Of a DNA stretch of 47,059 nt, positions 18,175 to 35,634 are shown piece by piece. The stretch covers positions 1 through 47,059 of the forward strand of contig CAKNQN010000012.1 of the NCBI GenBank assembly GCA_930990665.1, given 5' to 3'. This DNA comes from an uncultured Clostridia bacterium. Lineage in GTDB: Bacteria; Bacillota; Clostridia; Christensenellales; Borkfalkiaceae. The position numbers were made by a program, and so were the translations under genes. Each line of letters opens with the position of its first letter. Position 1 is the stretch's first letter. The notes beneath the pieces are model-generated. The model was not told the DNA's origin and made no database searches. It was given only the letters and a program-made list of their open reading frames with translations.

Positions 18175-21100
18175 CGGAATGCCTCTTCTGTTCTTCCACG
18201 GCGGCAAGCATGCTGCGAAGACGGATCTTGACGACGCCTAAGTTGTTGATCTCGTCGATCTTGATCTGCGTGTACAGCTTCCCCTTGCCCTCCAGGATCG
18301 CGCGGACCTCGTCCGTCGTGATCGCGTCAATGCCGCAGCCAAAGGATACCAGCTGCACCAGGTCCGCGTTCTCGTGTTCGGTGACATATTCCGCCGCACG
18401 GTACAGCCGCGCGTGGTATGTCCACTGGTTCAGCACGTTTACAAGAACCTGCCTTCCCATATGAAATACGGCGTCCTCCGAGAGCACCGCCACCCCCAGC
18501 GAGGTGAGAAGTTTGCCGATGCCGTGGTTGATCTCGGGATCGGCGTGGTACGGCCTGCCCGCCAGGACAATGACGTGTTTTCCCTCCTCTTCCGCCCTTT
18601 GCAGAATGAATTCGCCGCGCGCGCGGACGTCTGCATAGTAGGAGTTCAGCCGCGCAAAGCCCTCTTTCAGACCCTTCCGGATAAGGGAAGCGGGGAGTTT
18701 CCAGCGGGCGAGTGCACGTCTGAGCGCGCGCACCGTCGTCTTTTCGTCGTTGAGGTCTATGTACGGCATGACAAAATTCTCGTCCGTCAGGCGCTCGTTG
18801 TTGGCTTTGAGAAGTTCGGGATAGTAGGCCACCACGGGACAGTTGTAATGGTTGACCGAATCGTGCTCGTCGAGATTGTAGCTCTCGCAGGGGAAGAAAA
18901 TAAAGTCGACGCCGCTGTCCAGAAGGCTCTCGATGTGCCCGTGCGTGAGCTTGGCGGGATAACAGACAGTGTCGCTCGCCACCGTGTGCTGGCCGCGGAA
19001 ATACAGCTGGCGGGAGGATTTTTCGCTGAACACGACTTCAAAGCCGCAGGTTTCGAAAAAGCCCGCCCACAGCGGCAGCTGCTCGTAAAAGCCGAGCGCG
19101 AGCGGCAGCCCCACCCTGCCGCGCCTACCCGCGGAACCCGTGCGGCACTGCTGCAGACGCTCGTATTTATAATGGTAGATATCCAACTCGTCCGAATGCG
19201 GCTGAAGGCCCGCGCCCTTCTCGCACTTGTTGCCGGAGATGAACTTTCTCCCGTCGGAAAAGCGGATGACGTTGACGTTGCAATGGGAAGTACAGCCGTT
19301 GCAGACGTGGCTGCGCGAGGCATAGGAGAAGTTTTTCAGCTCCTCTTCGGAGATGACGGCGCTCGCGCCGCGGATATTTTCTTTTGCGTACAGCGCCGCG
19401 CCGAAGGCGCCCATCAGTCCCGCGATCCCCGGGCGCACAACGTGTTTGCCCGTTTCCAGCTCAAAGGAACGCAGCACCGCGTCGTTGAGAAAGGTGCCGC
19501 CCTGCACGAGAATGTTGTTGCCCAGCTCCTCCGGCGTCTTGGCGCGGATGACCTTGTAAATGGCGTTTTTGACGATGGAGGAAGAGAGCCCCGCGGAGAT
19601 ATCTTCCACGCTCGCGCCCTCTTTCTGCGCCTGCTTGACAGAGGAGTTCATGAAGACGGTACACCGGCTGCCCAGCTCCACCGGGTGCGAGGCAAACAGG
19701 CCGAGTTTGGAAAACTCGTCGATCTCCATGCCCATCGCCTTTGCAAACGTCTGGATAAAGGACCCGCAGCCCGAAGAACAAGCCTCGTTGAGCATGATGG
19801 AATCGATGGCGCCGTTCTTGATCTTGAAGCATTTGATGTCCTGTCCGCCGATGTCGATGATGAAATCCACTTTCGGGTCAAAATGCACCGCCGCCTTGAA
19901 GTGCGCCACCGTTTCGACGATGCCGAAATCCGCCTTGATCGCCGCCTTGATGAGGTCTTCGCCGTAGCCGGTGGTCGCCGCGCCCGCGATGCGGATGCGC
20001 CCGCCCGCAAGCGCATAGATCTCGGCAAGGCGCTCGGAAACGATGTCCAGCGGCTGGCCGTTGTTGGACTGATAGTGTTCGTACAAAAGTTTGCAGTCGG
20101 GCGTGATCAGCACGAGTTTTGTGGTCGTGGAGCCGCTGTCAACGCCGAGATAGGCATCGCCCGTATACGTCTTGATATCGGCAAAAGCGAGGTCGCTCGC
20201 CTTATGGCGCGCGACAAATTCTTCGTACTCCGCGCGGCTTCTGAAAAGAGGTTCGCCCGTGACGATCTCGTCGCTCGCGCGCACGTTGCGGATGCGCGAA
20301 TCCAGTTCGGAAAGGGGCATCGCTTTGACGTTCTGCGCGTAGAGCGCCGCCCCGATGCTCATAAAACAGGGAGCGTTTTCGGGGAAGATCGCATGCTCTT
20401 CGTCCAGCCCGAGCGTCTCGCAGAAGGCGCGGCGCAGTCCCTTGAGAAAGAAGAGCGGGCCGCCCAGAAAGAGCACTTTGCCCTTGATGCGCCTGCCCTG
20501 CGCAAGGCCGGAGACCGTCTGATCGACGACCGCCTGAAAGATACTGGCGGCAATGTCCTCCTTCCTGGCACCCTGGTTGAGAAGGGGCTGTATGTCCGAC
20601 TTGGCAAAGACGCCGCAGCGGCTGGCGATCGGATAGACCTTTTCCGCCCGCAGCGACATCGCGTCCATCTCCCCCACCGAGAGATTGAGAAGAGTGGCCA
20701 TCTGGTCGATAAAAGCGCCCGTTCCGCCCGCACAGCTGCCGTTCATGCGCTGTTCGGTTCCGCCCGTGATGAAGATGATCTTGGCATCCTCGCCGCCCAG
20801 CTCCACCGCCGCGTCCGCATCCGGATAGTACTTGCGGATGGCCGTGAACGCCGCCTGCACCTCCTGCACAAAGGCCACGCCGCTGCGCTCGGCAAGCCCC
20901 AGGCCCGCCGAACCCGTGATGCAGGCGCTGAATTCGCCCTCGCCGAACTTTTCCTTCACCACCGCAAGCTGCGAAAGAACACACTCTTTTACCCTCGCAA
21001 AGTGCCGCTCATAACTGGAATATAAAATTTCGAGGCTTTCGGACAGTACGCACACCTTTACGGTCGTAGAACCGACGTCGATCCCCAAATATTTGCTCAT
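18158..21100 (-). CDS. Double acyl-CoA dehydratase activase with DUF2229 domain
   Basis: 980 aa. Two BcrAD/BadFG/HgdC-type ASKHA ATPase domains in tandem: domain 1 about residues 1-260 (DVGSTTVK at 8; cluster ligand candidates Cys123 in NGSCAGGTG and Cys162 in ASRCGVF) and domain 2 about 315-575 (DSGSTTTK; Cys441/Cys445 in EACSSGCGSF and Cys480 in GSRCTVF). A Cys cluster follows (Cys600, 603, 607, 626), then a DUF2229 region about 650-970. HgdC-type dimers use ATP and a shared [4Fe-4S] cluster to inject an electron into a dehydratase; this protein carries both halves in one chain. Own promoter at 21153-21181. Confidence 0.9.
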   Translation of the reverse strand: MSKYLGIDVGSTTVKVCVLSESLEILYSSYERHFARVKECVLSQLAVVKEKFGEGEFSACITGSAGLGLAERSGVAFVQEVQAAFTAIRKYYPDADAAVELGGEDAKIIFITGGTEQRMNGSCAGGTGAFIDQMATLLNLSVGEMDAMSLRAEKVYPIASRCGVFAKSDIQPLLNQGARKEDIAASIFQAVVDQTVSGLAQGRRIKGKVLFLGGPLFFLKGLRRAFCETLGLDEEHAIFPENAPCFMSIGAALYAQNVKAMPLSELDSRIRNVRASDEIVTGEPLFRSRAEYEEFVARHKASDLAFADIKTYTGDAYLGVDSGSTTTKLVLITPDCKLLYEHYQSNNGQPLDIVSERLAEIYALAGGRIRIAGAATTGYGEDLIKAAIKADFGIVETVAHFKAAVHFDPKVDFIIDIGGQDIKCFKIKNGAIDSIMLNEACSSGCGSFIQTFAKAMGMEIDEFSKLGLFASHPVELGSRCTVFMNSSVKQAQKEGASVEDISAGLSSSIVKNAIYKVIRAKTPEELGNNILVQGGTFLNDAVLRSFELETGKHVVRPGIAGLMGAFGAALYAKENIRGASAVISEEELKNFSYASRSHVCNGCTSHCNVNVIRFSDGRKFISGNKCEKGAGLQPHSDELDIYHYKYERLQQCRTGSAGRRGRVGLPLALGFYEQLPLWAGFFETCGFEVVFSEKSSRQLYFRGQHTVASDTVCYPAKLTHGHIESLLDSGVDFIFFPCESYNLDEHDSVNHYNCPVVAYYPELLKANNERLTDENFVMPYIDLNDEKTTVRALRRALARWKLPASLIRKGLKEGFARLNSYYADVRARGEFILQRAEEEGKHVIVLAGRPYHADPEINHGIGKLLTSLGVAVLSEDAVFHMGRQVLVNVLNQWTYHARLYRAAEYVTEHENADLVQLVSFGCGIDAITTDEVRAILEGKGKLYTQIKIDEINNLGVVKIRLRSMLAAVEEQKRHSDEKRD

Positions 21101-22073: not shown

Positions 22074-25000
22074 TCAGTCTTTCCTTTTGAGCATCACCGT
22101 GCAGAGCACAGCTGCGCCGAGCAAGAAAGCACCCAGAACGACTGCGCCGGATGCGACGCTGCCGCTGCAGCCGCCTCCCTTATCCGTGGTATCTCCGGGG
22201 TCCTCACCAGGGTTTTCACCGGGGTTCTCACCGGGCTCTTCCTTTGCCGTGACCGTGACGGTGCAGGTCGCGGTGGAACCGTCCGCCGCAGTGGCCGTGA
22301 TGGTGACGCTGCCCGCCGCCACACCGGTAACGACGCCGTTTTCGTCGACCGTAGCAATGCTCTCTTCCGACGAAGAATAGGTAACACTCTTATCCGCCTG
22401 CGAAGCCCCCGTGACGGTGGCGGTGACGGTGACCGTGCTGCCTACTTCTACGGAAGCCTCCGTTTTATCGAAAGCGATACCCGTGATCTCTGTCTCGTCC
22501 GTCCAGGTCTTGGAAGCCGTATCGTACTGCCAGGTCGTATCCATCGCGAAAGTCGCACCGGTATTCGAATAGAATTTTTCCGCATCGAAGGAGACGGTGT
22601 GCGTCGCGGCGGACGTATCAAAGCCCGCATTCAGGTTGCCCTGGAAGACGATACGAAGTTTGTTGGCTGTGTCGAAATGCACCTGGATGGCCGTGGACTT
22701 GTTCGTATCGTTCGTCTGGCCCGACTCAAACATATATTCATAGACAGTCTTGCCGTCCACGGAAATGCCGTACCAGATCGCCTCTTTCACGCCCGTGGTG
22801 AGCTGCCCGTCGATCTGCCCCGCATACAGGGTGGTATTCAGCCAGCTGCACACGCCGTTGACGTGCACGGTCGGCGAGAAGACGTCTTCCGTAAAGGTGA
22901 TGGTGAACGCCACGTTGTCGTCGTCGTCCATCGAGATCTCGCTGATCGAGGCGATTTGCATGATCTGCGAGCTCTCCGGCTTGCCCGTGTAGGCCTCCGA
23001 CCACCACATCATCTGGCCGCCGTAATAGTACTTGGTGTAATCTGCGCCGAGCACGTATCCGGTGGGCGTCGTGTAGCCTTCTTTCAGCGTAAAGAATGTG
23101 CTGTGGCCTTCGGTATCGAGAAGCGGTGCGCCGTCCATCTCCGTGCCTTCATAGATGTCGATGATGATATCCTTATTGGAATAGAAGATCTCCACGCCGG
23201 CATCCGGATTGGCTTCTTTGATCTCCCGAACGGTGTAGCCGCCGATCAGGATACTATCGAGCGAATAGCTGTCCTGCGCCGCCGTGGGAGAGGTGCCGCT
23301 GTAAGCGAGCACGTCCAGCGTGACGCGGAATTCATAGTACCCGTAATTGGAGAAAAGTTCCAGCGCGGAAACAGCGGTCACCTCTGCAGGCGAGCCTTCG
23401 GGCGCCAGCAGATACAGCGTCCCGTCGTCCAGAAGCTCGAAGGTCGTGTCTTCCGCCACACGCGATTCGGAGAGCTCCCACTTTCCGTTCGTATAGGCGG
23501 GAAGGACGCATCCCTTTTCAAACGTGATCTGTGTGCCTACCGGGAAAGCCGTGGCCGTAGCGCCTTTGTAGAGGCATACGGAAAGATACACGGTGCGCAG
23601 ATGGAAGTTTACGTTCCAGTCGCTGTGATCGGCATCCGAAGTGATCTCATTGAGGGTGAAACCGTCCACTTTGAAATGATCGAAGAATGCCGCGAACTCT
23701 TCGTTGGTGCGCTGCCCTTCGAAGTTGTTGCCATCCGTCGGAGAACTGAATCCCGTGACGTGGATCTCATTGGTCCCTGCAAGCTCGGCGCCCGTGAAAG
23801 TAACTTCCTTATAAGTGAAGACGGTGACCGCGACAGAATAGCTCTTGCCGCCCGCTTCCGCCTTGACGGTTGCCGTGCCGTTGCCCACAGCGGTGATCTC
23901 GCCATTTGAAACGGTGGCGACCTGATCGTTCGTCGTGGACCATGTGACATTCTGCGCGCTGCCGGCCGAAACTGTGGCTTTTTCTCCGACAGCCAGTTTT
24001 ACGGAGCTCATGCTCAGCCCCACCGAAACGGTGCATGCGGCCGTTTTATTGTTCGCCGATGCGATGACCGTCACGGTGCCGATGCTCTGCGGCGTAACTT
24101 TGACTGTTCCGCCTTCCGTCGTATCCAGGCTGACGATGCCCTCTTCCGAAAGCTCCCACGAAATGGAGCTGCCGTCGTTGACCGTCGCCGTCAAGGTAAA
24201 GGCGGCATCCCCCACTGCGACCTCTTTCGAGGAATCGGAAATTTCGAGGATTGTGCCGTCTGCGACGGTGATCTCGCAGGTGACGCTCTTGTCCCCCGCT
24301 TTGGCGGTGATGGTCGTCTTGCCTTCCGCCTTGGCCGTCACGACGCCGTTCTCTACCGATGCGACATCCGGCTCGCTCGAAGTCCATTCCACGGCGATCG
24401 GGGTATCTTTCACCGATTCGATCACGTTCGCCTTGAGGGTGAGCTCGTTGCCAATATTTAACGTGGCAGCTGTCTGATCGAGGCTGATCGAAAATACTTC
24501 GTCGTCTTCCAGAACGCGGATCGCGCCGCCCTCATAGACATATGTCACGCTCTCGGACAGCACGTAGTCGGTGTACTCCAGTTTGTCGCCTACATAGTTC
24601 ATGACGTGCAGCCCGGAAAGCAACGTGATACGGTCTCCGTCAGCGGGAATATAGGCGCTGTTTGCGTTGATCATAAAGGTGGAAGTGCCGACACCCGCCA
24701 CACTGTCATGGCCGATATGCCAGTTCCAGTTGCCGTTCTTGGCGTGCAATTCGGTAAAGGTATACTGCTTGTCCGTAAACTGCGGATAAGCGGAATTGGT
24801 GAGGTTGAACACCACCTTCCCGAAATAGGAGCCTTCCGTATCCTGCGCGGTCATGCCCTCCACGTTCGTCTTCGCATTCATCGAAAGCGGCGTGCTGCCG
24901 TCGGGCGAAAGGACAAATTTTGTGTAAAAATTGCTTGTCGAGCTTTCCGCTTTCGCACCAATGACGGTAACGGGCGTCTCAGCGTTGACCGCCAGGAATC

Positions 25001-25076
25001 CGACCGTCCCCAAAGAAAGGACGAACAGAAACGCAAGCAGAACGATGAGTATGTTCTTTTTGGTTTTCGTTATCAT
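22074..25076 (-). CDS. Large secreted Ig-like (Big_2) surface protein with Cys-type C-terminal tail
   Basis: 1000 aa. Signal peptide at residues 1-33 (hydrophobic ILIVLLAFLFVLSLG). Bacterial Ig-like domains at about 196-272, 273-352, 353-418 and 860-940, each ending in a pattern like GxxTITAxAGDKSVTCEITV. Between and before them lies a repeated module of about 110 residues (about 50-190, 424-560, 590-720, 730-850) of the form GxTVxEI...F.KG..LP...L....T.. A Pro/Glu/Gly linker (EEPGENPGENPGEDPG) leads to GGGCSGS, a membrane helix and the basic end KRKD. Probably anchored in the membrane and reaching through the wall to bind glycans. Ribosome site AAGGAGAG. Last gene of the sugar locus. Confidence 0.85.
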   Translation of the reverse strand: MITKTKKNILIVLLAFLFVLSLGTVGFLAVNAETPVTVIGAKAESSTSNFYTKFVLSPDGSTPLSMNAKTNVEGMTAQDTEGSYFGKVVFNLTNSAYPQFTDKQYTFTELHAKNGNWNWHIGHDSVAGVGTSTFMINANSAYIPADGDRITLLSGLHVMNYVGDKLEYTDYVLSESVTYVYEGGAIRVLEDDEVFSISLDQTAATLNIGNELTLKANVIESVKDTPIAVEWTSSEPDVASVENGVVTAKAEGKTTITAKAGDKSVTCEITVADGTILEISDSSKEVAVGDAAFTLTATVNDGSSISWELSEEGIVSLDTTEGGTVKVTPQSIGTVTVIASANNKTAACTVSVGLSMSSVKLAVGEKATVSAGSAQNVTWSTTNDQVATVSNGEITAVGNGTATVKAEAGGKSYSVAVTVFTYKEVTFTGAELAGTNEIHVTGFSSPTDGNNFEGQRTNEEFAAFFDHFKVDGFTLNEITSDADHSDWNVNFHLRTVYLSVCLYKGATATAFPVGTQITFEKGCVLPAYTNGKWELSESRVAEDTTFELLDDGTLYLLAPEGSPAEVTAVSALELFSNYGYYEFRVTLDVLAYSGTSPTAAQDSYSLDSILIGGYTVREIKEANPDAGVEIFYSNKDIIIDIYEGTEMDGAPLLDTEGHSTFFTLKEGYTTPTGYVLGADYTKYYYGGQMMWWSEAYTGKPESSQIMQIASISEISMDDDDNVAFTITFTEDVFSPTVHVNGVCSWLNTTLYAGQIDGQLTTGVKEAIWYGISVDGKTVYEYMFESGQTNDTNKSTAIQVHFDTANKLRIVFQGNLNAGFDTSAATHTVSFDAEKFYSNTGATFAMDTTWQYDTASKTWTDETEITGIAFDKTEASVEVGSTVTVTATVTGASQADKSVTYSSSEESIATVDENGVVTGVAAGSVTITATAADGSTATCTVTVTAKEEPGENPGENPGEDPGDTTDKGGGCSGSVASGAVVLGAFLLGAAVLCTVMLKRKD

Positions 25077-25167
25077 TCTCCACTCTCCTTGTAAAATTTT
25101 TTATATTGACCGGCAGACGGGGCTGCCCCTGCCACAAGGAGCAGCCTTTCCCGTCGAAACATTTTTA

Positions 25168-27213
25168 TCACGCAGAGCGCTTTTTGAGGATGCAGGCAAC
25201 GGCCGTGATCGCAACGATCAGAGCGCCTGCGCCGATCGCCGTTCCCGCTGCGGAAGAGGAACAGCCGCCCGGCTGGGCGATCACATCGCCCTGGCCATCC
25301 TGATCGCCACCCGTTCCGTCTCCGCCGGTATTGCCCGATTCATCCGTTACCGTAATGACCAGTTTCGAAGAGGCCTCCGTATCCGTTCCGTCCGTGCTTT
25401 CCGTGCGCAGGGTGAGCGTGCGCTCGCCGATGGCGAGGTTGTTGAGGAAGGACTCGGAGATCACAAAAGTCGCCACGTTCGTCGTTTCGTCGAGCGTCAT
25501 CGTGTACTGCGATTTGGAAAGCCCGGCCCCGACCAGCGAGACAAACGCGCCGTTTTTCAGATCGGCCGTGAAAGTGAGCCCGCCCGCGGGAGCCTGCCCC
25601 TCCACCATCGTGTAGGCAGCGATGGAAAGCTCAGGCGCCTGCAAAGCCTCAAACTCCTCGGCAAATACGATCGTGATCGGCTGATAGCCGCCGTCGTTGC
25701 CGACGAGATAGGTATAGTTGCCCGCCTCGGTCACGTCCGCAAAGGCTTCCGCCTGCACCGAAAGGATGCCCGTCTGCGCGTCATAGGAATACAGCGAAGA
25801 GTCGATCGCCGTGCGGTCTCCTTTTGCAAAGTTGATCTCGCCGTTGTCGCGGGCGTCTACCGTCAGTTCGAGCGGCTGCGTTTCGTCAAAACGGCGCTGG
25901 ATGGGCGACGCGCTCTCTTCCACCACAGGCGTATTGATGCCCTTGATGGTGAGGGTGTTTGTCAGATATTTGTTGCTCGGCGACTCGATAAAACGAATAT
26001 ACGGATAGACCACGCCGTCGGCAAAATCCGACTGTTTGAGCGGGAATTTTTCAAACAGAAGCGTTCCGTTCCAGTATATGGTCGAATTTTCCGTGCCGAT
26101 CTCGATGCGGATGGTGTTGAGCATTTCCTGCCCGGCATATCCCGCGCCGCCGCCGTTGTCGGCATACGGACGCTGTGCATCCAAATCCTGCGTGTAATAA
26201 GGTTCCGCCTTGCCGGTCGTGGTCTGGAACATGATGCCCTTGTTCGCGTTGATATCGCCCGAACCGTAAGTGGTGTCCACAATGCCGTCCTCATCAAAAG
26301 TCATCGTCGTGAGGTTGGCAAACGGCTGTGCCGCAAACCCGAGCCCCCACCAGACGCCGGGCGCCGCGCTCGTATCGTAATGCAATGCGATCTCGATCGG
26401 TTCGGTCACGCTGTACCCGCTCACATTGGAGACGACGTTGCGAAGGAAGAGAACTTCGGAAGGCTCGTCCGCCGAATACTCCTCGTCAATGTTTGTATAC
26501 GTCATCGTGCCGTCGTTGTTATAGGTAAGATCGGACGTGCCCAGATCCATCCATTCCCCGTCCAGAAGATCGGAAACCTGCGTCCCCACCTCGGTCACCG
26601 TATACTGGGCGGCGGTAGTCGTGCTGTTGGCCATAATGGTCAGCGTGCAGTTATCCAGATCCAACCCGTCCGTGTTGTGCTTGGGGATAAAGGTCACATC
26701 GTCTACCGTCACATAGTAAGACCCCAGCATGTGCTGCACGTCGATGCTGTGCTCATCGGCAAAGATGCGGCGATAGGTGTACAGCGATTCGGCATAATAT
26801 TCGCCGCCGCTGAACTGGGAATGCACATAATAGATATCCCAGCGGATCTTGCGGTTGAGCGACGCCTTGTCTGCGTACAGCATGTGCGCGACGAGACGGA
26901 TCCCGTCTCCGCCGTCATCGGTAAAAGTAAATATCATCTGCTCGGAAGCGGTGGAAGAAGTGTCGAACGCGCTGATGCCGAACGCCACATTGGCGCCCGT
27001 TTCCAGGTCGAGCGCATCGGCATAGGTGACCGACGAAGCCGTGCCCGCCGCAAGCTGCGTGACGGTATCGCCCCCTTCTGCTGTCTGCACGGAGGTGTTC
27101 GCACTGTCATACGTCCATTTCCCGGCCGTCTCCTCGGCGGCGAACGCCGCCACCGTGCCGAACGTACTCACCGCGAGCACGCCCGACAGGATCGCTGTCA
27201 GTATTTTTTTCAT
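25168..27213 (-). CDS. Secreted surface protein with LamG-like regions and Cys-type C-terminal tail
   Basis: 681 aa of unknown function. Signal peptide at 1-26 (MKKILTAILSGVLAVSTFGTVAAFA). The body has two regions rich in beta-strand patterns resembling lectin/LamG-like sandwiches (about 30-215 and 220-440; for example IRIEIGTENSTIYWNGTLLFE), then a region about 445-630 similar in rhythm to bacterial Ig or cadherin-like domains. A Gly/Asp/Gln linker leads to PGGCSSS, a membrane helix and the end KKRSA, the same architecture as the neighbouring 1000-aa protein. Ribosome site GAGGAGTG. The context (glycosidase-like lipoproteins and a sugar transporter upstream) suggests glycan binding; this is inference. 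Confidence 0.78.
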   Translation of the reverse strand: MKKILTAILSGVLAVSTFGTVAAFAAEETAGKWTYDSANTSVQTAEGGDTVTQLAAGTASSVTYADALDLETGANVAFGISAFDTSSTASEQMIFTFTDDGGDGIRLVAHMLYADKASLNRKIRWDIYYVHSQFSGGEYYAESLYTYRRIFADEHSIDVQHMLGSYYVTVDDVTFIPKHNTDGLDLDNCTLTIMANSTTTAAQYTVTEVGTQVSDLLDGEWMDLGTSDLTYNNDGTMTYTNIDEEYSADEPSEVLFLRNVVSNVSGYSVTEPIEIALHYDTSAAPGVWWGLGFAAQPFANLTTMTFDEDGIVDTTYGSGDINANKGIMFQTTTGKAEPYYTQDLDAQRPYADNGGGAGYAGQEMLNTIRIEIGTENSTIYWNGTLLFEKFPLKQSDFADGVVYPYIRFIESPSNKYLTNTLTIKGINTPVVEESASPIQRRFDETQPLELTVDARDNGEINFAKGDRTAIDSSLYSYDAQTGILSVQAEAFADVTEAGNYTYLVGNDGGYQPITIVFAEEFEALQAPELSIAAYTMVEGQAPAGGLTFTADLKNGAFVSLVGAGLSKSQYTMTLDETTNVATFVISESFLNNLAIGERTLTLRTESTDGTDTEASSKLVITVTDESGNTGGDGTGGDQDGQGDVIAQPGGCSSSAAGTAIGAGALIVAITAVACILKKRSA

Positions 27214-27320: not shown

Positions 27321-29324
27321 TCATTTGCCGTAGTAAGCGTAATTCATGCGGCCGGCAGGGCAGGCGTCGCCCGTCGTATAGAAGCTCGCAAGATCGGTCA
27401 TGTCCGTCACGTTGTCGAGCACTTTGAAGTCGATGCGATACTCGCCGGTGATGCCGAGGGAAGTCTTCGGGATGCAGTACTGCATATACCGCCCGTTGAC
27501 CGTGACATACGCCTTTCCGCTGGACTGGTAAGCGACCCCGCTGGAACCTTCCGCGACCAGTTTGTCGACGGTGGTCAGCCCGTTGGCGGAGGGGGTACGG
27601 TTCACGAGGAAGTTATACCCGTTCCAGCCGGCATCCGAAGAGCCGTTGACGGAGATGAGGATGTTCATCCAGTTGCCGCGCGTGAGCTCGACCTGAATGT
27701 TGTCCTTGCACTGCACGAGGAAGTAAATGTTCTCCGCATCCGACGCGACGCGCACCTCTTCGATGTCGTTGCGGTTGGAAGTATCGGTGTAAGTGACGGT
27801 GGAAGACATCCCGATGCTGTTGCGCTCGATCGCGTCGCCCGAGAAATCGTAGTACACGTCCTTGACGGCGTTCCACTGGGTGAGACCGGTAGAGATATCG
27901 ATGCTCTTATAGTCGGAACGCACTGCGTCCGTGAGCGTCACCGTCTTATAATCGCGGATATTGCGCGCCATCTGCAGATAGAAGTTGTCGAAATAGCCGC
28001 CCTTCATCATCTCGACGTCGCGCGAAAACTCGCGGTTGAAGGTATCCACAAAGAAGGGACGTTCATAGTTGCCCCCGTCGAGGTACTGGCCGTTCCCAGG
28101 CGCGCCGACGGATTTGAGAGCGATCCATTCGTTCCAGCCGGTGATGAAGGTGTACTTGACATCCGCCGCGATGGCGTTGTCCCACTGCTCTTCGAAGTTG
28201 AGCCCGGAGTTGATCGCATCGTTGGAATGATCGGCGCCGTTCGCGCTCGTGTAACCCCTGCCCCACATGAGATCGGCAAGCTCCGCCGAGAGCGCCGCAT
28301 CCGAGAAGGGAAGTTTGTTGTGCTGGGCCACCGACACGTTGATCACCTCGCCGAACGCGGAATTGGGACGGCTGAACTGCACCCACGGGAACCCGTTAGA
28401 GTTTTCAACGCCCGTGTTCGGCCACTGCGATTCCTTGACCTCGAAAAATTCCAGAAGATCGGAATCTTCCGCCTTGGTGAGAGCCGCCGCGCTGCCCTGG
28501 TCGGAGGCGCCGCCGTTCTCTTCTGTGACCGCCACGATCATCGGCTTGTCGTTGGGCGCAAACCACAGATCCCGGTAACGTCCGTCTTTATAGATCCCGT
28601 CGTTGTAGATGTCCGACTGCCCCGCGATATCCGTCGCGTAGCCTTCGTAGAGCCGGCGCACCACTTCCGCCGAATTGCTGTTCGTGTAGAACATGAATTT
28701 TGGCACGTCCCAGCCCGCATCGTAATATTCCTGCATGATGGGAAGGAGCACGTTGAGCACGTCGAAATACTCGAAGCCGTTGGTCGTGTCGAACACAAGG
28801 AAGTCGACGCCCGCCAGCGTGAGCAGCTCTATGTGCTTGCGCAGCACCCACTCGTCCGTGGAATTGTAATAGCCGTACAGCGGCTCGCCCCAATAATGAT
28901 ACTGTGCGACCGGGCTGACCGCGTTGTTCTTGGTTTCCCAAAGCTCCGGATCGCCGTTTTCCAGCATCGCGGAAATGTCATAGATCCCCTGCTGCTGCCC
29001 GGTGTGCTGGCCCTGCCACAGGAAGTAAAAGAGCCCCACATAGCGGTCTTTGTCTTCCTTGTCCCCTGCAACCGGGTCGAACGTACGGCCGAAATCGTCG
29101 GTCGCCGTGAGCATGCGCAGCGAATCCGCCTTTGTCACGTCGGAAGCGGCGAGTTCTCCGTCCCAGGTAAATTCCATCTTTCCGTTATACACTTCGTCCT
29201 CTCCTCCGTCGTTTTTTGCGGATTGCGTGCATGCGCTGACCGACAACAGCATCGCCGCCGATAAAAACAGCGGCAATACCTTTTTCAGAAGGGATGCCCG
29301 CCCCGCATTTGCCTTTTCTTTCAT
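27321..29324 (-). CDS. GH99/GH71-like lipoprotein, paralogue 2
   Basis: 667 aa lipoprotein (lipobox SVSAC, Cys32). N-terminal (beta/alpha)8-like domain about 90-470: YVGLFYFLWQGQH, YHYWGEPLYGYYN, HIELLTLAGVDFLVFDTTN, LWFAPNDKPMIV, NVSVAQH and FITGWNEWIALK. A C-terminal beta-sandwich (about 490-667), resembling CBM9/DOMON carbohydrate-binding modules, ends GRMNYAYYGK. GH99 enzymes use two glutamates in NEWxE; here the second position is Ala, so activity or mechanism may differ. The downstream neighbours are two surface proteins and upstream lies a close paralogue (21-base gap). Ribosome site AAGGAGG. The substrate is unknown; alpha-mannan-like glycans are only a guess. Confidence 0.75.
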   Translation of the reverse strand: MKEKANAGRASLLKKVLPLFLSAAMLLSVSACTQSAKNDGGEDEVYNGKMEFTWDGELAASDVTKADSLRMLTATDDFGRTFDPVAGDKEDKDRYVGLFYFLWQGQHTGQQQGIYDISAMLENGDPELWETKNNAVSPVAQYHYWGEPLYGYYNSTDEWVLRKHIELLTLAGVDFLVFDTTNGFEYFDVLNVLLPIMQEYYDAGWDVPKFMFYTNSNSAEVVRRLYEGYATDIAGQSDIYNDGIYKDGRYRDLWFAPNDKPMIVAVTEENGGASDQGSAAALTKAEDSDLLEFFEVKESQWPNTGVENSNGFPWVQFSRPNSAFGEVINVSVAQHNKLPFSDAALSAELADLMWGRGYTSANGADHSNDAINSGLNFEEQWDNAIAADVKYTFITGWNEWIALKSVGAPGNGQYLDGGNYERPFFVDTFNREFSRDVEMMKGGYFDNFYLQMARNIRDYKTVTLTDAVRSDYKSIDISTGLTQWNAVKDVYYDFSGDAIERNSIGMSSTVTYTDTSNRNDIEEVRVASDAENIYFLVQCKDNIQVELTRGNWMNILISVNGSSDAGWNGYNFLVNRTPSANGLTTVDKLVAEGSSGVAYQSSGKAYVTVNGRYMQYCIPKTSLGITGEYRIDFKVLDNVTDMTDLASFYTTGDACPAGRMNYAYYGK

Positions 29325-29345
29325 CTTACGCCTCCTTATTATCTA

Positions 29346-31175
29346 TCAATACCCGTAGGTATAGTTCACTCTCCCAAGAGGCGCACAGTCACCGCTCACA
29401 TAGTAGTCCATGATGTCATCCTGCTCGGTGACGTTGTCGCACACCTTAAAGGTAAAATACACATCCTTCGCGCTCAGGCCGAGGTCGGAAAGCCGCACGC
29501 GCACGAGCATCACGTTGCCCTTGACCCGCAGATCGGCCGTCGCCGTATTTTCATACGCAAACCCGTTGCCCGTAAAGCGCGATACGCTCGTCGTGTTGCC
29601 CGAAGGCTGCGCGTTGATGAGATAATTGTATCCCTCAAAACCGCCGCCCTTGCCGCCGATCAGAATGTTCATCCAGTTGGTGCCGCCCTCGTACGGCGTG
29701 ATGTCTTCCGCCGTCTCCACATAGAAGTAGACATACTCCTTGTCCGTCGCCACCTTGGTCGTCACGATGTCGTTGCGGGCGGATGTGTCCGTATAATAAT
29801 ACCCGGCAATGGAACCCTTGTGATCGCGCTCCATCGCGTCGCCTTCAAAATCCTTATACGTCGTGCGAAGATCATCCCACTGCGAGAGGTCGCCGTCGAT
29901 GTCGATGGTGCGGCTCTCCACCCGGTAGGAGGCTTCTCCCGTACTCGTATATTCGCGCAGATTCTGTATCGTCTGCATATAGTAGTTGTCGCCGTAGCCG
30001 CCTTTCATCGGCTCGATGTCGCGCGAATAGTTGGTGTTGAAGGTGTCCACGAAATACACCTGATCCAGCGCATCGACAAACTTGATCGCCTGCCATTCGT
30101 TCCAGCCCGTCACAAAGACGATGTCCGCATTGTCGGAGGCGGCAAGTGCGTTATTCCATTGCGACTGGTAATTCAGCCCTTCGTTCACCCGCTCGTCCTC
30201 GTTTGTGACGTTGCTGTAATTGTAAGACCTGCCGCGGTTGCCGCTCGACTGGTTGCTCATCTTGGACGAGGTATGCTGCGCCACCGATACAGAGATCTCC
30301 CGGCTGGTTTCGTGCACTTTGTTGGGATAGGTAAACTCCATCCACGCAAAGCCGTTAGGGTTGAACGCCTCGTCCGGCCACTGGTTGTACTTGATGTCGA
30401 AATACGCCTTTACGCTGTTGTAATAGGCGTTTTCCTCGTCCGTACGGTCGTCGCTCTCCCAGCCGTAGATCGCACAGCTGATCATCGGCTTGCCGTTGGG
30501 CGCAAACCACAGCGGGGCGTATTTGTCGCAGATCCGGACTCCGTCCTCGTCCACCTCTTCGTTGGCATACCACGTCTCGTACAGATTCACCGCCGTTTCC
30601 ACCCCGTCCGAGCGGGTGAGAAACATGACCTGCGGCACGTCGAATCCTTGCTCATAGTAGCGAAGAAGAGTATCGAGCAAAAGTTTTGTCTGCGCGTCGT
30701 AGGTCACTTTGTTCGTCACGTCCAGCCCCAAAAAGTCGATCCCCGCGTTCACGAACATCTCGACGTGGCGGGAAACCACCCACGGATCCAGCTGATCATA
30801 ATAGCCGAACAGCGGTTCTCCCCAATAATGGTAGGTGCCGAGCACGCTGTCCGGGTCCGTACGCGCCCAGAGGGCATCCGGATCGTTTTCCAGAAGATAA
30901 TTGATATCGTATTTGTTCAGGGAATGGGCGCCGCACCACAAAAAGTAGAACATACCCACATATTTGCCCTCTTTTTCGCCCTCGATCGGCGAAAAACTGC
31001 GGCCGAGGGCGTCTGTGCCCGAAAGACTGTAAACAGTATATTGCTGGGCGGTGATGTCGCGGTCGTCCGCCGTTGCCCCTTTGCCCGTTTTCGTACAGGC
31101 CGCAAGGCAGAGCAGCGCGCTCAGCGCGATACTCACCGCTGCCAGAAATTTTTTTGGTCTTCTGATCTCTTTCAT
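29346..31175 (-). CDS. GH99/GH71-like lipoprotein, paralogue 1
   Basis: 609 aa lipoprotein (LAAC lipobox, Cys27). It follows the same layout as the next gene: YVGMFYFLWCGAH, YHYWGEPLFGYYD, HVEMFVNAGIDFLGLDVTN, LWFAPNGKPMIS, SVSVAQH, FVTGWNEWQAIK, then a beta-sandwich ending GRVNYTYGY. The paralogues share the motif order throughout but diverge in loop lengths, implying an old duplication. The NEW motif again lacks the second Glu (NEWQA). It begins four bases before the permease stop region (ribosome site AAAGGAT), so it is co-transcribed with the ABC importer. Expected to sit on the outer face of the membrane and trim imported glycans. Confidence 0.75.
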   Translation of the reverse strand: MKEIRRPKKFLAAVSIALSALLCLAACTKTGKGATADDRDITAQQYTVYSLSGTDALGRSFSPIEGEKEGKYVGMFYFLWCGAHSLNKYDINYLLENDPDALWARTDPDSVLGTYHYWGEPLFGYYDQLDPWVVSRHVEMFVNAGIDFLGLDVTNKVTYDAQTKLLLDTLLRYYEQGFDVPQVMFLTRSDGVETAVNLYETWYANEEVDEDGVRICDKYAPLWFAPNGKPMISCAIYGWESDDRTDEENAYYNSVKAYFDIKYNQWPDEAFNPNGFAWMEFTYPNKVHETSREISVSVAQHTSSKMSNQSSGNRGRSYNYSNVTNEDERVNEGLNYQSQWNNALAASDNADIVFVTGWNEWQAIKFVDALDQVYFVDTFNTNYSRDIEPMKGGYGDNYYMQTIQNLREYTSTGEASYRVESRTIDIDGDLSQWDDLRTTYKDFEGDAMERDHKGSIAGYYYTDTSARNDIVTTKVATDKEYVYFYVETAEDITPYEGGTNWMNILIGGKGGGFEGYNYLINAQPSGNTTSVSRFTGNGFAYENTATADLRVKGNVMLVRVRLSDLGLSAKDVYFTFKVCDNVTEQDDIMDYYVSGDCAPLGRVNYTYGY

Positions 31176-31178
31176 TCT

Positions 31179-32063
31179 TTATCCTTTGATGCTGCCCACG
31201 GTCACACCTTCGATGAGCTGTTTCTGGAACACGAAGAAGAGGATGGCGGGCAAAATGGTCATAAATACGCCGGCGGCCATACGCACGGGCACTTTCTGTA
31301 CGCTCGAATTCTGAATGGAATCGCGGAAGATCCCGATCGCCAGCGTGTACTTGGATTCCGTTTTCAGATACATGAGAGGGCCGAAGAAGTCGCTCCAATA
31401 GGTATTGAAGACGGTGATCATCACATAGATGAGGATGGGAACGCACAGCGGCAGCGTGATGAGAAGGTAGCGCTGAAAGGCGTTCGCTCCGTCGATCTTG
31501 GCCGCGTTGTCCAGCTCGTTGGGGATCCCGCGCATGAACTGGCGCAGGAGAAACACATTCATGGCTCCGCCGCCGAACAGGTTGGGAATGGTCATCGGAT
31601 AATAGGTGTTGATCCAGCCGAAAGCGGAAAACATGGCAAACTGCGGGATCTGTACGACCATGGAAGGAAGCATGATGGTCGAGAGCATAGCCACGAACAG
31701 CACGTTCTTCCCCGCAAACTTCGTCTTGGCAAAGCCGTAGGCCACGACAGACGCGGCGAACGGGATCGCGATCATGTTGAATACGACGATGATGAGCGTG
31801 TTGCAGGCGTAGCGCAGATAGTTGTTCTCGGTGAACATCAGCTTGTAGTTTTCAAAGGTGGGGTTCTCCGGCCAGAAACGCACGGGAAGGCTGGCTGCTT
31901 CCGTGCCCGTCATCAGGCTCTTGGTGATCATGAACGCCACCGGGAAAAGCAATACCACCGCCACCGCGGCATACACGATGTACCAAAGGATGTGCCGGAT
32001 GACCTCAAAGGTCATCTTTTTGCGGTTGGCGGCAGCGAGGACAGCCGAAACATGTTGATGCAT
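31179..32063 (-). CDS. Carbohydrate ABC transporter permease (MalG type)
   Basis: 294 aa, about six membrane helices. The EAA loop that docks the ATPase reads NELDNAAKIDGANAFQRYLLITLPLC (about 190-215). The C-terminus VTVGSIKG is typical of MalG-type subunits. The ATG at 32063 has GGGGAGGAG upstream; a start at 32081 would overlap the MalF-type gene. Forms the channel with the preceding permease. No ATPase gene is in the locus, so a shared MsmX-like ATPase elsewhere probably energises it (known for Bacillota sugar importers). Confidence 0.92.
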   Translation of the reverse strand: MHQHVSAVLAAANRKKMTFEVIRHILWYIVYAAVAVVLLFPVAFMITKSLMTGTEAASLPVRFWPENPTFENYKLMFTENNYLRYACNTLIIVVFNMIAIPFAASVVAYGFAKTKFAGKNVLFVAMLSTIMLPSMVVQIPQFAMFSAFGWINTYYPMTIPNLFGGGAMNVFLLRQFMRGIPNELDNAAKIDGANAFQRYLLITLPLCVPILIYVMITVFNTYWSDFFGPLMYLKTESKYTLAIGIFRDSIQNSSVQKVPVRMAAGVFMTILPAILFFVFQKQLIEGVTVGSIKG

Positions 32064-32064
32064 T

Positions 32065-33033
32065 TTACGACTCCTCCCCATAGTACACCCACTTGCTCGT
32101 GCGGAAGATGAACACGGTGAGAAGGCCTACGATAATAAACAGCACCCACGCGAGGGCACTGGCATACCCATATTCGAATCGCATGCCCGCGAAAGCCGTG
32201 TTATAGATCTTGACCGCAAAAAAGTAGAGGGAATTGTTCGGGCCGCGCCCCTCGTTGGCGGCGACCACATAGGTGTTGAAAGTCTGCAAAGAACCGATGA
32301 TCCCCGTGATGAGGTTGTAAAAGATCATCGACGTGGAGAGAGGGATGGTGATGCAGAAAAGTTTTACCGCGCCGTTGGCGCCGTCGATCGTGGCCGCCTC
32401 GTACAGTTCGGGAGGAACATTTTTGAGCGCCGACAGCCAAAGGATCATGCTGCCGCCCACGCCGAAAATGTTCATGAAAATAAAGGAAGCCATCGCCGAT
32501 TTTTCCGACTCGAAAAACTGACTGGACGGCAGGCCGAACGCATTGAGAATGCTGTTGCCCAGGCCGTAAATGGGGTCATATACCCCCTTCCACAGGAGCC
32601 CGCTCACGACGCTCGGGATCACCACCGGCAAATAATACAGAACACGAAAAACACCCACGCCCGCGATCTTCTTATTGACGAGCAGCGCGAGCATGTACGA
32701 GAGCACGAGCGTCAGCGGCACGGATATGATCGCATACAGAAAGGTGTTTTTCAGTACGATGATCATTTCGCGCCGGTCGGATGTAAACATGCGGATAAAG
32801 TTGCCGAGTCCGATCAGTTCGAAATGCTCCACGCCGTCGTATTCGGCAAAGGCATATACGAGCGACTGGATCATCGGATAAAATGTAAATATGAGCAGCC
32901 CCAGCGTCATCGGCAGCGTGAACAGCCAGCCGATGTAGCTGTGCTTGCAAGTTTCGCGAAGGCGGGAAAACTTCTTTCCGCCCTGCGGCTGCGGCGGACG
33001 CACGTCCGCCGCAGCAGTCCTTTCATTTGTCAT
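32065..33033 (-). CDS. Carbohydrate ABC transporter permease (MalF type)
   Basis: 322 aa, six predicted membrane helices (first at about 32-55, YIGWLFTLPMTLGLLIFTFY). The EAA motif region is LKNVPPELYEAATIDGANGAVKLFCITIPL (about 212-241). The N-terminal cytoplasmic tail is basic and Pro/Gln-rich. It overlaps nothing: the next permease starts one base after its stop. Ribosome site CGAGGACA. Partner of the MalG-type subunit and the solute-binding lipoprotein. Confidence 0.92.
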   Translation of the reverse strand: MTNERTAAADVRPPQPQGGKKFSRLRETCKHSYIGWLFTLPMTLGLLIFTFYPMIQSLVYAFAEYDGVEHFELIGLGNFIRMFTSDRREMIIVLKNTFLYAIISVPLTLVLSYMLALLVNKKIAGVGVFRVLYYLPVVIPSVVSGLLWKGVYDPIYGLGNSILNAFGLPSSQFFESEKSAMASFIFMNIFGVGGSMILWLSALKNVPPELYEAATIDGANGAVKLFCITIPLSTSMIFYNLITGIIGSLQTFNTYVVAANEGRGPNNSLYFFAVKIYNTAFAGMRFEYGYASALAWVLFIIVGLLTVFIFRTSKWVYYGEES

Positions 33034-33045
33034 AGATTGTCCTCG

Positions 33046-34494
33046 TTATTGGGCGATCACGTAGTTCATCTGGTCGACGCACTTTGCGATCGCATCGCCG
33101 TACGTCATTTCGCCGAGCGCATCGGTGATAAGCGTGGATACGGCCGTGATCAGATCTGCATATTTGTCGGTGTCATAATAGGTCATGAAGTCGCAGGGAA
33201 TGCAATATTCCGTACCGTATGTATAGGCAGACATATTGATGCCCTGTTCCACGTACTCTTTCCCCCACTCGTTCGTCGCGGGGTCGGACATATCCTTGCG
33301 AAGCGGGTTGGTCGTCATTCCGCCGCGCGCAAGCGCGTTCTGACCGTCCTGCGTGAGCATGAAACGGAGGAAAGTCCAGGCAAGATCCCTCTTGGGAGTA
33401 CGGCTGTAAATGCCGTATCCCGCTACCCCCGTACCGATGTACGGCGTAGAACCGATCAGCGGGAAAGAGGTCAGGTTGTAATCGTCGCCCAGGGAGTTCA
33501 CCCAGCGGCGCGCATAGGCGCTCTGGAACATCATCGCGCCCTGCCCTCCTTCGTAGTTCGCCTGCGAAGAGGAAGAGAATGGAGCCGCATACCGCTTTTC
33601 GATCAGCTCATTCATCATGTCGAGCGCGGTGCGCGTTGCATCGGAATCGACCGTGATCGCTCCCGTTTCAGGATCGATCAGCGTCGCACCGTTGGAACGG
33701 AATATGGAATAGTATACCGCTTCCCACGAAAGATACGCGTCGATCAGATAAAGGCTTTTGCCGTTGTTGGAAGAACTCGTCACCCAGTCGGCATCCCCGT
33801 CATAATAGGCGCGGAGCACGGCGCAGGTATCGAGAAACTCCTCCCAGGTCCAGCCGTTCGCCGGCACATACGTCCCGTCGATGGGCGTGAACGGAAGTTC
33901 GTTGCCCGCCGCCGTATACTGCGAAAAACAGTCTGTAAAGATCTTCTCGTTGATGTGCGTGACGACGCGGTCGGCGCTGCGCGGGATCAGAAACTGGTCG
34001 CCGTCAAAGTCTTCCTGCCCCAGAACCCACATCTCTTCGTAATATTCGTCGAGCACGAGATTCTTGGACGTGTCGTCGGATGCCGTCGCCGCATTCACAT
34101 ACGGCTGCAGATCGAGCAGGATGCCGCTCGATACGAGTGGGTGCATGTCCTCCGAGTTGGACATCAGAATGTCCGGCATGGTGCCGGGCGCATTGGTATC
34201 CGCCTGATAGTATGTGACAAGCGAGTTGTTATACGGCTCGGGGATCTGCTCGATGTTCACCTTCACGTTCGGATAGATCTGGTTGTACTCCTCAATGAGC
34301 GATTCGAGCATCGTCTTTTCCGTCCCCTCCGCCGTGATGCCGATATCCAGCGTGCCCTCCACTTCATAATCGATGTCGAGATTCACTTCATAATCCGCTC
34401 CCGGATTTTTGACCGTGTTCCGGTTGCAGGCGCTTATGGCAAACATACTTGCCCCCAACAGACCGGCCAACACACATGTCAGTATTTTTTTCAT
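33046..34494 (-). CDS. Extracellular solute-binding lipoprotein (ABC sugar importer)
   Basis: 482 aa family 1 solute-binding protein. Lipobox AISAC (Cys23) after MKKILTCVLAGLL. The mature part opens with the usual LDIGITAEGTEKTMLESLIEEYNQIYPNVKVNIEQ and contains MLSNSEDMHPLVSSGILLDLQPYV and PYIGTGVAGYGIYSRTPKRDLAWTFLRFMLTQDGQ, typical of cluster B sugar-binding lobes. The ATG at 34494 has AAAGGAGG; a longer frame to 34587 runs through the operator. First gene of the importer operon, 135 bases after lacI, with a LacI operator in its leader. Confidence 0.93.
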   Translation of the reverse strand: MKKILTCVLAGLLGASMFAISACNRNTVKNPGADYEVNLDIDYEVEGTLDIGITAEGTEKTMLESLIEEYNQIYPNVKVNIEQIPEPYNNSLVTYYQADTNAPGTMPDILMSNSEDMHPLVSSGILLDLQPYVNAATASDDTSKNLVLDEYYEEMWVLGQEDFDGDQFLIPRSADRVVTHINEKIFTDCFSQYTAAGNELPFTPIDGTYVPANGWTWEEFLDTCAVLRAYYDGDADWVTSSSNNGKSLYLIDAYLSWEAVYYSIFRSNGATLIDPETGAITVDSDATRTALDMMNELIEKRYAAPFSSSSQANYEGGQGAMMFQSAYARRWVNSLGDDYNLTSFPLIGSTPYIGTGVAGYGIYSRTPKRDLAWTFLRFMLTQDGQNALARGGMTTNPLRKDMSDPATNEWGKEYVEQGINMSAYTYGTEYCIPCDFMTYYDTDKYADLITAVSTLITDALGEMTYGDAIAKCVDQMNYVIAQ

Positions 34495-34527
34495 TGTCAG
34501 CCTCCTTTGCTTTTTGATAATTCTGTG

Positions 34528-34543
34528 AATGACGCGCGTCATT
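34528..34543. promoter_or_regulatory. LacI-family operator of the sugar operon
   Basis: AATGACGCGCGTCATT, a perfect 16-bp palindrome with the central CG dyad typical of LacI sites, identical to the one at 35664-35679. It is 33 bases upstream of the solute-binding protein start. A possible promoter TTGAAT-17-TATTAA lies just upstream, with a 10-bp inverted repeat (34586-34610) around its -35 box. Confidence 0.88.
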
Positions 34544-34629
34544 TTTGTGACAAACGCGTACTCAAAAATTTTTTCTTTTAATAGCATTGCGTTGAATGGA
34601 ATTCAACGCAACTTTTTATAAAAAGTTGT

Positions 34630-35634
34630 TCAGTTTTTTGCGGGAGCGATGGACTGCCGCAATTTTACGTGCATGGGGACGACGACCGTGTGATAGGGAT
34701 GAGACTCGGGGTCGGCGACCTTTTCAATGATCATTTGCGCAATGTCGGCACCGTGCGCCCGCTTATCGAAGGAGATGGTGCTGATCGGCGGATTGAAATA
34801 TTCGCCGAGCGCGATGTCGTCACAGCCGATCACGGAGACGTCTTCGGGGCAGCGCAGCCCCGCCTCGCTCAGACAGCGCAGCGCGCCGAGCGCCGCAAGA
34901 TCGTTGGTGCAAAACACCGCTGTCACGTCCGGATGGCGCTGCAATAGTCTTTTACACAGCCTGTAACCGATCTGTTCGGAAGTGAGTGTCATGTCTTCGT
35001 TGAAGAGGATCAGAGACTCATCCGAATCAAAGCCGTATTTTTCCCGCTCTTCGAGGAAGGTCTTGCCTCGCTTGTCCGAGCGGAAGCGCATCTCGTCGCC
35101 CGTCCACAGGTAGGCGACTTTCCTGTGTCCCCCCTCCTGCAAAAGGCGCATGAACTCGCGCATGGGCGGCGTATAGTCGTTTACAATCATGAAACTGTCT
35201 TCGGGTGAAAAATTGACGAGCACGATCTGCTGACGCTTGAGTTCCGCCGTGAATGCCCGGGGAAGATCGTTGGTCATGAAGTTCACGAGCCCATCCAGCC
35301 GCCGCTCACAGATAGCATGATATTTTTGGTGGCTGGTATTGTTGAGAACAAAGATCGTCGTCATGAAATTGTGTTGCGCCGCATACTCCTCGATCCCCTG
35401 GATGATCTCGGCATGATACGGATTCGTCATCTCGTAGAGAGCGATACCAATGTGATTGTTTCGACGGCGCGCCATGCTCTTGGCGTTAAAGTCGGGAATA
35501 TAATTGAGTTCTTCGATCGCTTTCCGGACCTTTTCCACGTGTTCGGGCTTTACAAAGCTCTTGTTGTTCATCACATTGGATACCGTCCCGACCGAAACCC
35601 CCGCCCGCTTCGCCACATCGTTTCTCGTGATCAT
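34630..35634 (-). CDS. LacI-family transcriptional regulator
   Basis: 334 aa. N-terminal helix-turn-helix and hinge: MITRNDVAKRAGVSVGTVSNVMNN...VEKVRKAIEELNYIPDFNAKSMARRR (residues 1-55). The periplasmic-binding-protein-like sensor domain spans 60-334 with VTAVFCTNDLAALGALRCLSEAGLRCPEDVSVIGCDDI. It is expected to bind a sugar released by the locus and let go of DNA. The ATG at 35634 has GAGAAGGT. It has a near-perfect promoter followed by the 16-bp palindrome, so it is autoregulated. Only 135 bases before the importer operon on the same strand. Confidence 0.95.
   Translation of the reverse strand: MITRNDVAKRAGVSVGTVSNVMNNKSFVKPEHVEKVRKAIEELNYIPDFNAKSMARRRNNHIGIALYEMTNPYHAEIIQGIEEYAAQHNFMTTIFVLNNTSHQKYHAICERRLDGLVNFMTNDLPRAFTAELKRQQIVLVNFSPEDSFMIVNDYTPPMREFMRLLQEGGHRKVAYLWTGDEMRFRSDKRGKTFLEEREKYGFDSDESLILFNEDMTLTSEQIGYRLCKRLLQRHPDVTAVFCTNDLAALGALRCLSEAGLRCPEDVSVIGCDDIALGEYFNPPISTISFDKRAHGADIAQMIIEKVADPESHPYHTVVVPMHVKLRQSIAPAKN

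Follow-up and report, generated by a model that had tools for sequence, protein, structure and literature searches.

Cysteine-bearing tripartite C-terminal tails are reportedly paired with CPBP-family enzymes in the systems described by Haft, i.e. JDVT-CTERM/MrtJ, Synerg-CTERM/MrtS and CGP-CTERM/MrtA. In the MYXO-CTERM/MrtX system of the Myxococcota many substrates with a signal peptide, a C-terminal Cys motif, a helix and a basic end are served by one CPBP enzyme, and the proposal for Myxococcus is that an enzyme described as unidentified, for which Lgt is the leading candidate, lipidates the Cys before MrtX cleaves (PMC11980579). Here we analyse a 47,059-nucleotide stretch of DNA (the window; contig CAKNQN010000012.1 of assembly GCA_930990665.1) from an uncultured Clostridia bacterium, in which two adjacent genes encode surface-type proteins that both end in Gly-Gly-Cys, a hydrophobic helix and a basic terminus (the GGC tail). 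An original prediction, made from this sequence, had taken the tail to be a Cys-dependent sorting signal. Comparative genomics supports that proposal, both through recurrence of the tail and through one clade of CPBP enzymes that tracks it; we put at about 0.8 the probability that the GGC tail and this clade form a lineage-wide C-terminal sorting system that would proceed by two steps, Cys lipidation and cleavage, in the manner of MYXO-CTERM.

C-terminal Cys tails served by CPBP enzymes are an already known kind of system; what sets the present one apart is the tail, the enzyme clade, the hosts and the neighbouring Lgt gene, and no description of a Cys tail from Clostridia was found in the open-access literature, a search with most subscription papers outside its coverage. 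From MYXO-CTERM in particular it is distinguished by its Clostridia-type hosts and by an Lgt gene next to the enzyme in 11 of 85 loci. Three further pathways also offer points of comparison. GlyGly-CTERM/rhombosortase shares a Gly-rich motif, a helix, a basic end and a dedicated intramembrane protease with the GGC system but, as described, its enzyme is a rhomboid serine protease and the motif is glycine/serine-rich rather than Cys-bearing. LPXTG/sortase likewise sorts Gram-positive surface proteins by their C termini, although its motif is absent from the window proteins and its enzyme was not found in most of the genomes searched (see below). The Lgt/LspA lipoprotein pathway also involves a Cys beside a membrane helix, and an Lgt gene lies next to a membrane protease gene in 11 of the loci described below; it differs in that the GGC tail is C-terminal, has inverted topology and no lipobox, and would be served by a CPBP enzyme in place of LspA. 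If correct, the proposed system would provide a defined route of surface display for Clostridia-type bacteria that mostly have no detected sortase, and the GGC signature would mark up to dozens of surface proteins per genome.

The GGC tail in the window and in related genomes

The first of the two window genes (22074..25076, minus strand) is an open reading frame (ORF) for a 1000-residue protein with a signal-peptide-like start (24981..25076, minus strand, from hydropathy, with a cleavage site ...VNA/ET placed by eye) and Big_2 Ig-like domains (Pfam match, E 2.1e-31). Its C-terminal end, KGGGCSGSVASGAVVLGAFLLGAAVLCTVMLKRKD, contains the first tail (22077..22175, minus strand), in which GGC, with the Cys at residue 970 (codon 22167-22169), is followed by about 20 hydrophobic residues and a KRKD end. 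The second ORF (25168..27213, minus strand) encodes a 681-residue protein, also with a signal-peptide-like start (27136..27213, minus strand, from hydropathy; cleavage site ...AFAA/EE by eye), for which a Pfam scan at E<=0.01 gives no family; it ends in PGGCSSSAAGTAIGAGALIVAITAVACILKKRSA, where the second tail (25171..25269, minus strand) comprises GGC, with the Cys at residue 651 (codon 25261-25263), a hydrophobic helix and a KKRSA end. Each protein contains a single GGC, and hydropathy gives each one N-terminal and one C-terminal hydrophobic stretch, with less hydrophobic segments, none of them membrane-like, in between. Both ORFs and their tails are thus as originally described, and the accompanying claim that neither protein has LPXTG also holds, since no LPXTG-like motif occurs in either. 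These are the only two GGC tails in the whole window. A related locus (L010), from a metagenome-assembled genome named as an uncultured Clostridia bacterium, codes for both proteins, both of them tailed, the 1000-residue protein being 63% identical to its relative in the best segment.

Far from being confined to these two genes, which would have refuted the original prediction, the tail recurs in the source genome and beyond. A hidden Markov model (HMM) built from the window tails alone found seven places in the source genome at E<=10, two of them the window tails themselves; each of the other five is the C-terminal tail of a further protein and shows the Cys, the helix and the basic end. An eight-tail model gave 13 matches at E<=10, comprising nine Cys tails, three without Cys and one (C13:19367) left unread, and a 38-tail model (A3) gave exactly nine places at E<=0.01 in a genome that is 74% complete. 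The two window tails, themselves members of A3, match it at E 6.7e-13 (first) and 5.0e-11 (second). A3 was built solely from tails read with Cys, the three Cys-less source-genome matches being excluded, and its invariant Cys is therefore partly a matter of choice, because only Cys-bearing tails were taken in. Of its 38 tails, 34 have GG before the Cys and 33 have Ser or Gly after it, and the Cys lies 26-34 residues from the end. Eight of the nine tailed source-genome proteins have signal-peptide-like starts, judged by eye, and the start of the ninth is lost at a contig end; by Pfam, two of them contain Big_2, another two Listeria-Bacteroides repeats (with an additional F5/8-type C match in one) and one GDPD, and four have no family.

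Within a sample of 151 genomes of the source genome's family, 77 have at least one tail match at E<=0.01, with a maximum of 28 per genome. Of the top loci taken from 29 family genomes (L024-L052), the 27 that were readable all show a Cys tail, L027 and L048 being left unread. A sample of 247 genomes of the order gave matches at E<=0.01 in 57, with the Cys column covered in 21; the other 36, whose matches all begin beyond the Cys column, were excluded from the tail count on the basis of a hand-made list. The large tail sets belong to the source genome's own family, to f29 and to f32. It is this patchy distribution that makes a phyletic profile possible. Two genomes of about 1.1-1.2 Mb (G014 and G031) have 15-18 tail matches, several of them in tandem genes, and in the loci inspected (L081-L085) near-alike tails, mostly with KKKD or KKKH ends, stand on differing bodies.

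The GGC tails share the MYXO-CTERM architecture of Cys motif, single helix, basic end and signal peptide (the last by eye), and yet correspond poorly to the named sorting-signal models. No NCBIfam tail model matches either whole window protein at E<=1. When the 38 isolated tails were scanned against NCBIfam at E<=10 (bits being given for the first window tail and E-values for the other 37), MYXO-CTERM (TIGR03901) alone was listed for the first window tail, at 9.2 bits (E 1.6), under its cut-off of 20. MYXO-CTERM was listed for 13 of the 38 (best E 0.0014) and the LPXTG model for 22 (best E 0.007); the lowest E-values came from isolated matches to LAVTG, listed for three (best E 2.2e-5), and PVV-CTERM, listed for two (best E 8.5e-5). 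The tail models of the JDVT and Synerg systems are matched weakly, JDVT by three of the 38 (best E 0.012) and Synerg by one (E 0.093). The Pfam LPXTG anchor gave weak matches in 14 of the 38 (best 0.0025). No model was found that fits the tail class as a whole, although single tails may pass one.

The CPBP enzyme clade and its co-occurrence with the tail

Searches for a partner, which covered CPBP, sortase and Lgt, were made in a panel of 44 genomes picked by tail counts, 22 of them tail-rich and 22 poor or empty, with 3-28 and 0-2 A3 matches, respectively, at E<=0.01. Sortase (PF04203) was found in two of the 44, with no match in the source genome or in 21 of the 22 tail-rich genomes, and was rejected as the partner. 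CPBP matches were present in all 44 genomes, and all 97 of them were read; a tree built from 94 (the weak G295:C20, G257:C2 and G152:C3 were excluded from it and from A5) contains one clade of 25 proteins (SH-aLRT 94), made up of one protein from each of the 22 tail-rich genomes and from G002, G006 and G032 among the 22 others, which have one, no and two tails, respectively, at E<=0.01. In leave-one-out searches no clade member falls below 194 bits, whereas the best non-member reaches 77. The source-genome member is encoded outside the window on contig C3 (G000:C3:131218-132000, minus strand), so that the myxosortase-like enzyme suspected elsewhere in the genome has a candidate, and the suggested check for a membrane protease that co-occurs with the tail HMM matches returns this one CPBP clade. 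The other main CPBP type (e.g. L001 of the source genome) was rejected as the cognate enzyme because it is present both with and without tails.

Distribution across the larger samples was scored with a clade model (A4) at E<=1e-25 for the enzyme and with A3 at E<=0.01 for the tail. The enzyme is present in 75 of the 151 family genomes, of which 64 have both enzyme and tail, 13 the tail only, 11 the enzyme only and 63 neither (Fisher p 5e-18, enzyme and tail each counted across all 151); among the 122 family genomes outside the discovery panel the corresponding numbers are 46, 13, 10 and 53 (p 3e-12). The association persists within genera: in a genus-stratified test of 138 genomes (13 of unlisted genus, all without tail and enzyme, were left out) 64 genomes have both where 50.4 would be expected (p 4e-8), and in 20,000 permutations within genera so large an overlap never arose. 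Genus g10 has six genomes with both and ten with neither, with no exceptions; the least clean genera are g3 (four tail only, two enzyme only) and g7 (three tail only, two enzyme only). The enzyme is found in all 19 family genomes with at least seven tails, in 44 of the 47 with at least three (the three misses being 57, 89 and 82% complete) and in 12 of the 18 with a single tail.

The order sample, which overlaps with the family sample in genomes of the source genome's own family, contains 17 genomes with both, four with the tail only, four with the enzyme only and 222 with neither. All told the enzyme occurs in 21 of its 247 genomes, 17 of them with a Cys-column match, which is a single tail in G009, G099, G195 and G364. 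The tail-only genomes are G265 (62% complete), G194, G233 and G160, and those with the enzyme only are G006, G201, G271 and G284 (weakly scoring). The co-distribution of one enzyme clade with many tails that marks the Cys-CTERM/CPBP kind of sorting system is thus seen here, with 13 tail-only and 11 enzyme-only exceptions among the 151 family genomes.

The source-genome enzyme matches the CPBP/Rce1-like family PF02517 at 56.1 bits (cut-off 22.4), and E130, E131, R135, F164, H168 and H211, corresponding to EExxxR, FxxxH and H, which we take to be the CPBP motifs, are invariant in all 25 clade members. A clade-specific Cys stands seven positions ahead of EExxxR (residue 123 of the source-genome enzyme segment), present in 25 of 25 members and in 4 of 72 other CPBP matches. 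An AlphaFold2 model of the source-genome enzyme is nearly all helical (pLDDT 94.4, pTM 0.91), and searching PDB sequences with a profile of the enzyme returned no related structure. The source-genome enzyme falls far under the MrtJ threshold (19.2 bits, cut-off 75), and none of the other Mrt models, i.e. Mrt_core (NF040914) and MrtX, MrtC, MrtP, MrtS and MrtA, lists it at E<=0.01.

Neighbouring Lgt genes, proposed mechanism and alternatives

Amongst 85 enzyme loci (25 from the panel and 60 others), an Lgt-family gene directly adjoins the enzyme gene in 11 (genomes G068, G086, G022, G129, G092, G150, G099, G111, G009, G020 and G132), which span four genera (g3, g5, g10 and g16); in one further genome (G178) Lgt lies 3.8 kb from the enzyme. 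Nine of the 11 pairs are co-oriented, Lgt coming first in eight and the enzyme in one (G129), and the remaining two are convergent (G111) and divergent (G009). Seven pairs overlap by 4-23 bases, taking the first ATG as the start, and gaps of 85 and 13 bases separate those of G022 and G129. Two of the adjoining proteins match Lgt PF01790 (cut-off 24.9) at 107.6 bits (G068) and 118.1 bits (G111), and the other nine score 204-244 bits with a model built from panel Lgt proteins alone.

All 11 are of a divergent type with GRxGC..xGCC in place of GRxGNF.N.E, which we take to be the canonical Lgt motif. In a tree they join the second Lgts of other tail-rich genomes in a group of 19 rows (SH-aLRT 93) that includes no enzyme-negative panel genome, although only the 10 panel rows count as a test, because the other nine were taken in for lying beside the enzyme. 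Both Lgt types occur in 15 of the 25 enzyme-positive panel genomes as against 3 of the 19 enzyme-negative ones, four rows classed as 'other', which carry a GNY motif, being scored as canonical. The number of Lgt copies was rejected as a strict marker, with at least two matches in 16 of the 22 tail-rich and 4 of the 22 other genomes, counts in which a split gene scores as two in G239 and inflates G178.

Two side observations concern these enzyme loci. In genus g1 (L170, L155, L159-L164) the enzyme gene lies near acetyl-CoA carboxylase-like and Fab-like genes and a gene for a DegV protein, fatty-acid-synthesis neighbours that were judged by eye except for DegV and a FabA-like domain; a link to lipid supply is possible. 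At L312 (4790-6070, genome G129) the Lgt-family frame continues into a stretch that by eye is NUDIX/MutT-like, and a natural fusion is possible.

The mechanism we propose is one in which a protein with a signal peptide and a secreted body would be exported by Sec and retained in the membrane by its C-terminal helix, with GGC at the outer membrane face and the basic end in the cytoplasm. The Cys would then probably be lipidated, possibly by an Lgt-family transferase, and an intramembrane protease of the dedicated CPBP clade, whose identity is supported by co-occurrence, would remove the helix, such that the mature protein may stay on the cell surface through a lipid on its C-terminal Cys. A more specific version is a C-terminal lipoprotein pathway in which a second, divergent Lgt (the GRxGC..xGCC type) would attach diacylglycerol to the Cys of the GGC tail in dozens of surface proteins, and a CPBP protease coupled to it, with a conserved membrane Cys of its own, would cut off the helix; we regard it as standing at even odds. 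Were it true, the Lgt-CPBP pair would provide an acyltransferase of the sort described as unidentified for the myxosortase system (PMC11980579), and the question of which enzyme lipidates the Cys before CPBP cleavage becomes testable through such pairs.

Several observations weigh against this sorting system. Of the 77 family genomes with tails, 13 have no enzyme, compared with approximately 8.5 expected from incompleteness alone, and the clearest counterexample (G056, 94% complete) carries a clear tail but gives no match to the enzyme; conversely, 11 enzyme-positive family genomes have no tail at E<=0.01. Tail and enzyme genes are within about 6 kb of each other in two cases only (G090 and G239). 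The adjacency of Lgt is confined to a minority of loci. Whilst the divergent Lgt is present in 21 of the 25 enzyme-positive panel genomes, it was not found in the other four, including the source genome at its 74% completeness, and it is also present in 13 of the 19 enzyme-negative ones, mostly as the sole Lgt. Finally, the clade resembles the named myxosortase models no more closely than its paralogues do: at E<=0.01, MrtJ, Mrt_core and MrtS match 23, 14 (best E 4.7e-8) and 12 of the 25 clade members, respectively, and 52, 33 and 67 of 69 non-clade paralogues. Similarity to Mrt models was dropped as an argument because non-clade paralogues match equally, and the case for the enzyme accordingly rests on its co-occurrence profile.

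That profile also bears on the alternative of a plain anchor whose C-terminal helix is left uncleaved, its Cys free or S-acylated, with the CPBP protein doing a separate job. The tail would function as an anchor unchanged, and helix tails without Cys also exist in the source genome (three of the 13 matches to the eight-tail model); on such an account, however, the conserved GGC and its partner would both be superfluous, and it would be left unexplained why the CPBP clade goes with the tail both between families and inside genera, and why it is present in two thirds (12 of 18) of the family genomes with one tail match. We therefore consider a plain anchor unlikely. Nor does it seem probable that a shared glycan-using lifestyle and larger genomes account for the co-occurrence, with the enzyme acting on other proteins. 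Tail genes do often lie near apparent sugar ABC transporter genes (by eye), and the highest tail count belongs to a larger genome (G130, 2.7 Mb), but the small genomes G014 (1.2 Mb, 18 tails) and G031 (1.1 Mb, 15 tails) both carry the enzyme, the other main CPBP type is present regardless of tails, and the within-genus permutations never reach the observed overlap.

The Lgt genes beside the enzyme and the fatty-acid-synthesis-like neighbours in g1 might instead indicate that the CPBP protein is a non-protease helper of lipid modification, comparable to LnsB, a CPBP-like protein that acts in lipoprotein N-acylation in Staphylococcus aureus (PMC7387801). LnsB is said to depart from the CPBP signature motifs (PMC7387801), whose residues are invariant in the clade, and the LnsB model matches none of the 25 clade members at E<=0.01; we accord this explanation a low probability. 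A known sortase-type pathway acting on a variant motif, to which the weak LPXTG-model matches might point, is very improbable, given window proteins without an LPXTG-like motif and the failure to find a sortase in 42 of the 44 panel genomes, the source genome and 21 of the 22 tail-rich ones among them; a sortase gene in the quarter of the source genome that is missing would still leave those 21 unaccounted for.

Genomic setting of the tail genes

Upstream of the two tail genes in the window lie, all on the minus strand, genes for two proteins without a Pfam match (27321-29324, the first of the two, which by eye starts like a lipoprotein, and 29346-31175), two ABC permeases of sugar type from Pfam and NCBIfam matches (31179-32081 and 32065-33033), a solute-binding protein (33046-34587) and a LacI-family regulator (34630-35634). 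These genes (27321..35634) are the genomic setting of the tail genes and lie outside the sorting machinery. Since many tail genes in other loci are also near apparent sugar transport genes, the proteins displayed are probably glycan-handling ones. No recurrent protease was seen by eye among the neighbours of tail genes, in neighbour lists that are incomplete, the gene caller having favoured long antisense frames in GC-rich loci.

The type of protein encoded at 27321-29324, which by eye ends in ...YYxxGDxxPxGRxNYxYG or similar, adjoins tail genes in several genomes, examples being L010 (3436-5238 and 5774-7768), L087, L088 and L099, and could act on glycans in partnership with the tailed proteins. 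Elsewhere in the window, 18158-21100 encodes a 980-residue CoA-enzyme activase (BadF/BcrAD type with DUF2229) that bears no relation to the tail, and a protein of 424 residues with the start MAWIIYKHTSPSGKCYIGQT, encoded at 41892-43166, resembles by eye a GIY-YIG-type nuclease, for which it is a candidate.

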